Source: a virus. From it: 22,634 nt of DNA. The stretch lies in the IMG/VR virus record IMGVR_UViG_3300030012_000916, positions 1-22,634 of that record; one strand, written 5' to 3'. Shown piece after piece: positions 3,825 to 6,171 of this stretch (the stretch's first letter is position 1; each line of letters begins with the position of its first letter). Both the position numbers and the translations under genes were made by a program. A model generated the notes under the pieces. The model made no database searches. It saw only the letters and a list, made by a program, of their open reading frames with translations, and was not told the origin of the DNA.

Positions 3825-4961
3825 TCAGAATGCGGCAGGCTTGGTAGCGGTGCCAGCAAACAGTTCCACTGCACAAGCAGGGTTCAGGTAGTCTGCGCCC
3901 ATGGCGAGACGACCCAGGATCACGTCACCTTGGTAGACCACGGAGACGTCACCGCTGGTGACCTGGACCTGAGGGCCAATAGCTTCAACGCAGCCAGCGG
4001 CTTCGCGTTGGAAGATAAGACCACAGGAGTTTGCGAATTCGGTTTCTTCACCGTACTCGTTGTTGATGCCAGAGACATCGTTAGCAGCATCTTCCAGAGC
4101 TTCGCTGACAAAGGAGCCAGTGTTACCGGGGGAAGTGGTGCCAGGGTTGGTAGCAGAACCAGTACCGTACTTAGTGCCATACTGGCTGAAGAACGGAATG
4201 TTCATGGACTTGAAGATCTTGATACCAGCAATCTCCACAATGCCCTGACCGGACTGCAGGCCATCGCCTTGCTCGTCACGGTTGATCAGTCCGTTGTTGC
4301 CAACTTCCTGAATTAGTGCATAGTATTGACGGGGGTTCAAGATTCCCACACGTCCCTCTTGAGACACACCCTTTTCGTCGAGTGCTGCTGCGGCATCGAA
4401 GAAGGCGGTGGTCAGTTTTTGAGCATCATAAGCGTCAGAAGCGTTGGCAGTAGCGCCAACACGGATTTGGGTGCCACCCGGCTCAACGAAGTTAGACTTG
4501 GTGATAGGGGAAGCAGCACGTGCCCCGCGAGTGATAGCGCGGAAGATCAGACGATCATACTTTTGTGCAAGTGCATAACCGATCTTGCGTGAGATTTCAG
4601 AACGCAGATCGTAGTGGGCAAGAGTTTCATCCAGGTCATACAGGAATGCACTGGAGATGAGCAGATCATCAACGGTGATAGTCTTCTCAGCCACCGGAGG
4701 TGCACCGTCGGAGTTACCGAGGATTGCGTTTCCGGGGGTGTGGTACTCAGCCGTGGTGCGACCAGTGTAGATGAACTGCATAGATTTGCCGTTCTTCAGC
4801 GTACGCTTCATGACAAGATCACGAGCGATCGCATTATACTGGAAGCCTTTGAACATCTCTCCACTGAACAACTTCAGGTAGAGAGCGCGGGTGTCACCCG
4901 CAGAGTTAGCCTGACCAGGACGAGTCAGACTCGTGGTCAGTGATGAACTTTGATGTGCCAT
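3825..4961 (-). CDS. Major capsid protein (gp10-like, HK97 fold)
   Basis: 378 residues, close to T7 gp10A (345). The N-terminal SLTTSLTRPGQANSAGDTRA, the LYLKLFSGEMFKGFQ stretch and the RLIFRAITRGARAASP region match the T7-like capsid family. The C-terminus, DVILGRLAMGADYLNPACAV, is a conserved closing segment. Around residues 255-290 is a Gly/Thr/Ser-rich loop (GTGSATNPGTTSPGNTGSF) that is probably surface-exposed. The gene is flanked by a terminator downstream and a structured leader of about 150 bases upstream, and is expected to be the most strongly expressed late gene. The start at ATG 4961 fits the family N-terminus although no Shine-Dalgarno sequence lies within 15 bases. No gp10B-type frameshift extension was identified. 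Confidence 0.95.
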   Translation of the reverse strand: MAHQSSSLTTSLTRPGQANSAGDTRALYLKLFSGEMFKGFQYNAIARDLVMKRTLKNGKSMQFIYTGRTTAEYHTPGNAILGNSDGAPPVAEKTITVDDLLISSAFLYDLDETLAHYDLRSEISRKIGYALAQKYDRLIFRAITRGARAASPITKSNFVEPGGTQIRVGATANASDAYDAQKLTTAFFDAAAALDEKGVSQEGRVGILNPRQYYALIQEVGNNGLINRDEQGDGLQSGQGIVEIAGIKIFKSMNIPFFSQYGTKYGTGSATNPGTTSPGNTGSFVSEALEDAANDVSGINNEYGEETEFANSCGLIFQREAAGCVEAIGPQVQVTSGDVSVVYQGDVILGRLAMGADYLNPACAVELFAGTATKPAAF

Positions 4962-5304: not shown

Positions 5305-5359
5305 CCACTCCTTAAACCGTCCCTTCGGGCTTTACAATTTTGGAAAGCTCAGAAGATAT

Positions 5360-5476
5360 TTAGTTGGATGCGATATTACGCTTAACAATGTAAGCGACAC
5401 CACGATACTTCAAGACAATTTCTTTTTGCTTGGCTTGCTGTTCGCGGACACGTTGACGCAATTCAATAAGAGACAT
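5360..5476 (-). CDS. 38-residue DUF4278-like peptide under riboswitch control
   Basis: Starts at ATG 5476 with GGAG six bases upstream (5486-5483) and stops at TAA 5360. The first half is a charged helix (SLIELRQRVREQQAKQKE). The second half, VLKYRGVAYIV, matches the core of DUF4278, the short cyanobacterial family with a K-L-x-Y-R-G-V-x-Y signature. Function is unknown. The ribosome binding site begins four bases after the 3' strand of a pseudoknot in the glutamine-II-like RNA just upstream, so translation is probably reduced when that RNA is folded. Short peptides are the usual genes downstream of this RNA class. The coding call rests on the good binding site, the riboswitch and the family motif; length alone would not support it. 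Confidence 0.7.
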   Translation of the reverse strand: MSLIELRQRVREQQAKQKEIVLKYRGVAYIVKRNIASN

Positions 5477-5490
5477 GATGAACTCCAAAT

Positions 5491-5541
5491 ACCTTACCCC
5501 CCGTTCCATGAGTAAGATGCCTGCGTCCCGAAGGATGAACG
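5491..5541 (-). ncRNA. Glutamine-II (Downstream-peptide) riboswitch-like RNA
   Basis: On the minus strand P1 is CGTTC (5541-5537) paired with GAACG (5506-5502). Inside it, P2 is a TCC/GGA hairpin with a UUCG loop (5535-5526). ATCTTACTC (5518-5510) pairs over nine positions, two of them G-U, with GGGTAAGGT (5499-5491), which lies beyond P1 and so forms an H-type pseudoknot. The strings CGTTCATCC, GGACGCA and ACTCATGGAACGG agree with my memory of the Downstream-peptide motif, later shown to bind glutamine. The pseudoknot ends four bases before the ribosome binding site of the following peptide gene, so ligand binding should lower translation. It occurs in cyanobacteria, cyanophages and marine metagenomes. 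Confidence 0.85.
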
Positions 5542-5553
5542 TACGGCTGAAGT

Positions 5554-5703
5554 CTATTTCTTTTTTGCAGTTTTTGCAGCACGCTTAAAGTTTGCTGCGG
5601 TTGGTGCGCCTTTAGATCCAGGCTTACGCATCTTCTCGCCACTGCCTGCAGCGATCCGCTTACGTTTTGCGTGGATGTTAGCGTAGAGTCCAGGCTTAGC
5701 CAT
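5554..5703 (-). CDS. 49-residue basic phage protein (MAKPGLYANIHAKRKR type)
   Basis: ATG 5703 to TAG 5554, overlapping the preceding gene by 8 bases. The protein is very basic: GLYANIHAKRKRIAAGSGEK, then a Lys/Arg/Gly/Ala section ending in three lysines. I recall near-identical short proteins beside capsid genes of other marine and cyanobacterial phages, always uncharacterised. The charge suggests binding to DNA or RNA, or to the acidic scaffold, during head assembly; that is inference. It is the last of five basic micro-genes between scaffold and the riboswitch, and its stop lies 12 bases before the riboswitch. Confidence 0.85.
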   Translation of the reverse strand: MAKPGLYANIHAKRKRIAAGSGEKMRKPGSKGAPTAANFKRAAKTAKKK

Positions 5704-5911
5704 AGGATTTTTTGGATTTCTTTTTAGCTAGAGGTAGTTGAGGTCCAGTCCGCTTAAGAAATGTTTCTTTTTCGTGCGGATTGTTTGTGCTCTTACCTTT
5801 GTTGTAAATCTTTTGTTTCTTTTGTGCACCTCTGTGGCCTGGGCCAATGTCAAAGGACTGGGAAACAAAGTTACTACCAAAGGCTTTTTGGTCAACTCGT
5901 TTGCTTTTCAT
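5696..5911 (-). CDS. Small basic protein, unknown function
   Basis: 71 residues from ATG 5911, whose A is also the last base of the upstream TAA stop (TAATG). This is better coupled than the in-frame ATG at 5923, which would add four residues. The sequence has GSNFVSQSFDIGPGHRGAQK in the middle and a Lys-rich end (KKKSKKSYG). No catalytic motif or membrane segment is present. It overlaps the next small gene by 8 bases and belongs to the tightly packed basic micro-protein operon between scaffold and capsid. I do not recognise a named family. Confidence 0.75.
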   Translation of the reverse strand: MKSKRVDQKAFGSNFVSQSFDIGPGHRGAQKKQKIYNKGKSTNNPHEKETFLKRTGPQLPLAKKKSKKSYG

Positions 5912-6171
5912 TAGCATTTCCATTTACGTAGTGCAAGAGCCTTCCGTGTAGGACGACCCTTGCTGTCTTTCATTGGTCCTTTGACACCAGACATGCGGGC
6001 ACAAAAAGAACGCTTGCGTGGTCCACCTTCAGGCTGTGGTGCCTTCAGGTTAGACCCTGTAGCTCTGTTATATTTACGCCGACCGGCAGCCGTTAAGCCA
6101 CCGGACCGCGATTTGTGTACACCGATCTTGAGACTTACTGAACGTGTACTACTTTTTGTTGCCTTTGCCAC
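5911..6171 (-). CDS. Small basic protein, DUF6321-like
   Basis: 86 residues with a GTG start at 6171. The central pattern, KIGVHKSRSGGLTAAGRRKY followed by NRATGSNLKAPQPEGG and RKRSFCARMSGVKG, matches a short phage family that I recall as DUF6321, of unknown function. The C-terminus ends with RKALALRKWKC. There is no ATG before the conserved region, so GTG is chosen; it is supported by GGAGG eight bases upstream, inside the preceding 20-residue gene. It overlaps that gene by 23 bases and the next gene by one. Charge and position suggest a minor virion or DNA-binding role, but nothing here proves one. Confidence 0.85.
   Translation of the reverse strand: MAKATKSSTRSVSLKIGVHKSRSGGLTAAGRRKYNRATGSNLKAPQPEGGPRKRSFCARMSGVKGPMKDSKGRPTRKALALRKWKC

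Follow-up and report, generated by a model that had tools for sequence, protein, structure and literature searches.

Results

The window and the features at the locus

The stretch of DNA analysed as a whole (the window), 22,634 bases long, is the IMG/VR record of a marine virus of cyanobacteria. T7-like replication genes, a class Ia ribonucleotide reductase, and portal, scaffold, capsid and tail tube proteins are encoded on its minus strand only, some of these names having been assigned by homology to an annotated relative. The closest named genome, AP013539 (uncultured phage MedDCM-OCT-S28-C3; Autographiviridae, Pedosvirus), is 93.7% identical over the region, and its counterpart of the peptide described below carries the sole label "hypothetical protein" (BAQ94037.1). 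The features of interest, in the direction of transcription, are:

5548-5553, minus: candidate anti-Shine-Dalgarno ACUUCA, pairing with UGGAGU at 5487-5482 (minimum-energy leader fold; relatives L002, L022 and L102)
5492-5544, minus: glutamine-II riboswitch aptamer (RF01704, formerly Downstream-peptide; cmscan 47 bits, model positions 1-60 of 60)
5537-5541, minus: pseudoknot 5' strand CGUUC, pairing by sequence with 5506-5502 (U-A replaces the C-G pair 5537/5506 in 18 distinct relatives)
5526-5535, minus: P1 hairpin UCC-UUCG-GGA, 3 bp by sequence (5535-5533 / 5528-5526); relatives show changes on both sides of pairs 1, 3 and 4
5511-5518, minus: P2 5' strand AUCUUACU, pairing over 8 bp with 5498-5491 (relatives have 44 distinct 5-bp cores)
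5502-5506, minus: pseudoknot 3' strand GAACG, within the P2 loop, pairing with 5541-5537
5491-5498, minus: P2 3' strand GGUAAGGU, read from sequence and ending 4 nt 5' of the Shine-Dalgarno
5483-5486, minus: Shine-Dalgarno GGAG, 6 nt upstream of the ATG
5360-5476, minus: 38-codon ORF MSLIELRQRVREQQAKQKEIVLKYRGVAYIVKRNIASN, a DUF4278-like YRGxxY micropeptide (dN/dS, invariant motif, phrog_5049 at E 6e-4)
3825-4961, minus: major capsid protein gene (Pfam Gp10A-like, 255 bits), the constant downstream neighbour of the riboswitch-peptide unit

Upstream of the unit are a DUF6321 protein (5911-6171, minus, 92 bits) and a 49-aa basic protein (5554-5703, minus, phrog_16028), both of which are kept in many T7-like cyanophages. 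Downstream, 399 nt separate the peptide stop (5360) from the capsid start (4961), and a 64-aa ORF (5304-5110, minus) with the cysteine pattern CGYCGTKKPQC lies in between. No Pfam or PHROG family matched this ORF; copies with 46-72% identity come after the riboswitch-peptide unit in several other phages. Directly ahead of it, GCCCGAAGGGACGGUUUAAGGAG (5311-5335, minus) forms a CCC-GAA-GGG hairpin adjoining its Shine-Dalgarno, and cmscan with all Rfam families made no call there.

The leader RNA belongs to the glutamine-II family

When the window was scanned with all Rfam families, RF01704 was the only one above threshold, matching 5544-5492 (minus) over the full model length at 47 bits (E 9.9e-9), the gathering score being 33. 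The model matched 0 of 14 control genomes; given that score and these controls, the helices are more than chance. Glutamine-I (RF01739, cut-off 35 bits) was not called in the window, and the close copy in AP013539 scored 14.5 bits against it. Thus, the covariance model bears out the sequence-only reading, which had placed the RNA in the Downstream-peptide/glutamine-II class, and on its sequence the window RNA is a member of this known family. The folding energy of the leader (z-score -0.64) is uninformative as evidence.

From 5541 to 5474 on the minus strand, the leader reads CGUUCA UCC UUCG GGA CGCA GGC AUCUUACU CAUGGAACGGGG GGUAAGGU AUUU GGAG UUCAUC AUG. The three helices that the sequence-only reading had described are all present, with labels permuted relative to those of the published structure: the helix that it called P1 forms the pseudoknot, its P2 corresponds to P1, and what it took for a pseudoknot is the P2 stem. 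Its "9-pair pseudoknot" exists likewise, as a P2 stem of 8 contiguous pairs, the ninth being the closing C-G that the Rfam model adds. It was correct that the 3' strand of this helix ends four bases ahead of GGAG (5486-5483) and that a 38-codon gene follows at 5476-5360. The ATG lies 15 nt past the aptamer end, with a spacing of 6 nt from GGAG.

Compensatory changes in relatives

Comparison with related phages, as that reading had proposed, was made with 134 distinct phage aptamers among the matches listed. Their P2 helices averaged 6.6 pairs, compared to 3.9 with shuffled partners (shuffle maximum 4.2, n=200), although registering P2 by its best helix favours pairing, and P2 was built from 44 distinct 5-bp cores. 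Both-sided changes numbered 15-63 per P2 pair and 12-21 at P1 pairs 1, 3 and 4, these counts referring to sequences and not to independent events.

For the pseudoknot, three altered patterns were searched separately. The double-change pattern (GUUUA with GAAAC) occurred at 30 loci, 23 of them with the peptide; 18 distinct aptamers, from 23 loci, have U-A in place of the C-G pair, and SS120-1 is one named genome with the double change. The one-sided C.A pattern was found at 5 loci, none followed by the peptide (0/5), and no genuine C.A break was found. The U.G pattern accompanied the peptide at 45 loci, mostly representing another variant with a degenerate 5' half. Most pseudoknot pairs are invariant and hence uninformative in either direction. 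The search pattern itself fixes GTTCA and GGAACGGG, so their constancy in the main set was left uncounted. Taken together, the relatives support the predicted P1, P2 and pseudoknot by compensatory change.

Variant units at other viral loci

About 42 viral loci (within L302-L347; for example L302, minus, and L312, plus) keep the YRGxxY peptide together with the 3' aptamer half. Their 5' half overlaps the end of the upstream ORF, which terminates in FLETQFTKMVLESTIDA with the TGA stop inside CGCATGA, and their pseudoknot is reduced to GUUU or GUUC with GAAC. RF01704 called none of the five variant loci tested. These loci are possibly a variant aptamer shaped by the overlapping coding sequence. 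In the viral contig L326, a variant unit is followed closely downstream by a group I intron at 12709-12479 (minus; RF00028, 109.6 bits).

The ORF encodes a conserved single-motif micropeptide

In the clade of the window, dN/dS for the 38-codon ORF was 0.09-0.29, a substitution pattern by which the ORF is coding and under purifying selection. The tyrosine of YRGxxY, which lay outside the selection criteria, was invariant in 97 distinct phage peptides among the matches listed. A tblastn search of phages with the 38-aa peptide returned 2 records only, the query being too short for power.

The likeness to DUF4278 that had been read from the sequence holds, but at 18.2 bits (E 0.0034) the window peptide falls below the Pfam cut-off for PF14105 of 25.3. 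Phage peptides generally scored ~17-18 bits, whereas two host-type peptides passed with 30 and 39. As in DUF4278 proteins, to which the N-terminal portion of the glutamine synthetase inactivating factor IF17 belongs, the peptide has an LxYRGxxY core and is under the same kind of riboswitch control (PMC6316151). Unlike them it scores below the cut-off, and it is without the rest of IF17, in which the DUF4278 part is followed by a C-terminal part that inhibits glutamine synthetase (GS): the ORF ends 9 residues past YRGVAY, leaving no room for such a domain.

AlphaFold2, run on the window peptide with 29 relatives from viral contigs (mean pLDDT 79, pTM 0.43), placed a helix at residues 3-18, strands at 19-24 and 27-32, and YRG at the turn. 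Judged by the model, hardly anything beyond the beta-hairpin would be present in 17-residue peptides such as that of P-SSP7. The peptide profile matched no solved structure by sequence.

The ORFs that follow the aptamers of Prochlorococcus and Synechococcus have two or three YRG motifs (e.g., MTLIYRGQKYVQNK...LTYRGKAY), whereas each phage peptide has a single YRGxxY. Directly behind YRG, nearly all phage peptides among the matches listed have V, I or T, and hosts mostly K, Q or H. Such a single copy could compete with the multi-copy host DUF4278 proteins, so that the phage peptide would oppose the host and keep nitrogen assimilation running as glutamine rises. The difference in motif number and the tie between host-type DUF4278 and IF17 (PMC6316151) are consistent with such opposition; however, inactivation by IF17 is described as not requiring its DUF4278 part (PMC6316151), and we regard this explanation as quite unlikely.

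The unit occupies a fixed place ahead of the capsid gene

A pattern built on the conserved strings matched at least 120 stretches in IMG/VR which, together with named phages and including the window, amount to at least 129 phage or viral copies. A YRG ORF starts 21-30 nt past the aptamer in 123 of these; among the matches listed, five of the six copies without one reach the end of the sequence, and the sixth (L132) looks frameshifted. Pattern matches outside picocyanobacteria in the genome contigs scanned were discarded as chance, none having a YRG ORF.

Matches to window genes by tblastn placed T7-like structural genes at 123 of 128 loci, all on the strand of the riboswitch (among the matches listed). 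A major capsid gene followed on the same strand in 84/84 viral contigs with at least 1.5 kb downstream, at a gap of 228-1440 nt (median 366; likewise among the matches listed). Upstream, psbA was present at 40 and hli at 54 of the 61 listed loci with at least 2.5 kb on that side. At this position psbA is missing from the window phage, SS120-1 and S-TIP28, indicating that the unit is independent of psbA.

The constancy of the capsid gene, also in phages without psbA there, would suit a switch that serves this gene, the peptide ORF being a short leader and glutamine tuning late-operon output, above all capsid protein, to amino-acid supply. We consider this unlikely: the aptamer stands at translational distance from the peptide start and not from the capsid start, which is removed from the peptide stop by 399 nt and the 64-aa ORF, and the peptide sequence is itself conserved.

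Whole-genome searches of 22 named T7-like cyanophages, picked by similarity and not randomly, were positive for RF01704 in 17, among them P-SSP7, S-TIP37, S-RIP1, S-RIP2, S-CBP1, S-CBP4, 9515-10a, NATL1A-7, NATL2A-133, P-SSP2, P-GSP1, SS120-1 and S-TIP28. In P-SSP7, a 17-codon peptide, MKVTFVYRGVAYTRVIG, follows the aptamer without an annotated gene. The remaining five (7B11-B, P-SCSP1a, S-CBP2, Syn5 and P60) lack the RNA. That it is a decayed remnant from a host, functionless in the phage, would fit these absences and the ~42 loci with a degenerate 5' half, but strikes us as very improbable in view of the full-length model match, the compensatory changes, a dN/dS well under 1, the invariant YRGxxY and the fixed position. 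The unit is found at the same spot in most of the related viruses examined, often unannotated; its setting between head genes, which had seemed odd from the window alone, is instead its regular place in marine T7-like cyanophages.

Pairing of the 5' flank with the ribosome binding site

In the leader fold without the pseudoknot, ACUUCA (5553-5548) pairs with UGGAGU (5487-5482), masking GGAG. The counterpart pair is CUCCAG/UUGGAG in the close relatives L002 and L022, both the flank and the ribosome binding site (RBS) sides are altered in L102 (UCAGG/UCUGA), and in the S-TIP37 group the helix UUCGUACG/UGUACGAA overlaps the pseudoknot 5' strand. The flank-RBS match exceeded that of shuffles across all leaders among the matches listed (9.11 vs 8.04, sd 0.13) and in 25 representatives (8.92 vs 7.93, sd 0.35), while control segments displayed little or no excess. 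These results are suggestive of a 5' flank that can mask the Shine-Dalgarno. Since a stricter test of the Shine-Dalgarno core in 10 representatives failed to reach significance (7% of shuffles), the anti-Shine-Dalgarno step is one that we infer. Withholding the pseudoknot strands left mean RBS accessibility unchanged, and a recognisable Shine-Dalgarno was missing in 32 of the 134 leaders, about a quarter, among the matches listed. A pairing of the P2 loop with GUUC beside the Shine-Dalgarno (5483-5480), seen by eye in the window, was rejected as a switch, as by eye it was not conserved in relatives.

Discussion

The RNA family and its link to DUF4278 in picocyanobacteria are known, and glutamine riboswitches have been described from phages, T4-like cyanophages among them (PMC2864571, PMC6316151, PMC9964418, PMC9602691, PMC9004378); what is new is the constant position of the unit ahead of the capsid gene. 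The literature searched contained no description of a fixed unit in T7-like cyanophages, of which an earlier mention may exist, and mentioned phage glutamine riboswitches for T4-like cyanophages and a few other myophages only. Like the RF01704 members of marine picocyanobacteria, the window RNA passes the full model and is followed by a small YRG ORF; unlike them, it sits in a phage late operon ahead of the capsid gene, and its ORF has one YRGxxY in place of two or three. It shares a phage-borne glutamine aptamer with the T4-like cyanophages and phage Melnitz (PMC9964418, PMC9602691, PMC9004378), but the Melnitz copy is glnA-class-like and controls tmRNA, whereas the window copy is of class II, in a T7-like phage, ahead of a micropeptide and the capsid gene. 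Glutamine-I aptamers of T4-like cyanophages lie at or just below threshold (RF01739, cut-off 35): P-SSM2 (AY939844) scores 35.1 bits at 245155-245206 and S-PM2 (AJ630128) 33.3 at 142317-142415, S-PM2 having two weak ones in tandem.

Glutamine-II aptamers bind L-glutamine, and a Prochlorococcus element activates expression on binding, the ligand stabilizing the pseudoknot and probably competing with an RBS-masking structure (PMC6316151; PMC6698751). Combining glutamine binding and the ON direction from these published host members with the family membership, compensatory pairing, coding under purifying selection and fixed place from the present analysis, we think it probable that the locus is a glutamine-II riboswitch gating translation of the micropeptide, ON with glutamine, in the late operon of a T7-like marine cyanophage. 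Plentiful L-glutamine would bind the aptamer and stabilize the CGUUC/GAACG pseudoknot between P1 and P2; the 5' strand would then be kept in the aptamer, leaving GGAG free and allowing the peptide to be made. When glutamine is low, the pseudoknot would open, and the flank at 5553-5548 could pair with UGGAGU and presumably mask the Shine-Dalgarno. The peptide may be viewed as a one-copy version of the YRGxxY motif repeated in the host DUF4278 proteins under glutamine-II control, and its most likely target is the nitrogen metabolism of the host during late infection. We infer that the phage senses nitrogen status, as had been proposed from the sequence, and likewise this role of the peptide.

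A broader proposal, which we find conceivable though somewhat doubtful, is that marine T7-like cyanophages carry the glutamine-gated micropeptide as a near-core part of their capsid operon and that it reprograms host nitrogen assimilation late in infection, for example as a mimic or a blocker of the host DUF4278 proteins that regulate glutamine synthetase. If true, the action of the micropeptide would coincide with the heaviest demand for amino acids, that from capsid synthesis. The finding places a putative metabolite sensor of nitrogen status at a constant spot in a widespread group of marine phages that includes the model phage P-SSP7. With the isolates P-SSP7 on Prochlorococcus MED4 and S-TIP37 on Synechococcus WH8109, the roles of a phage riboswitch and of an unstudied YRGxxY protein are directly testable.
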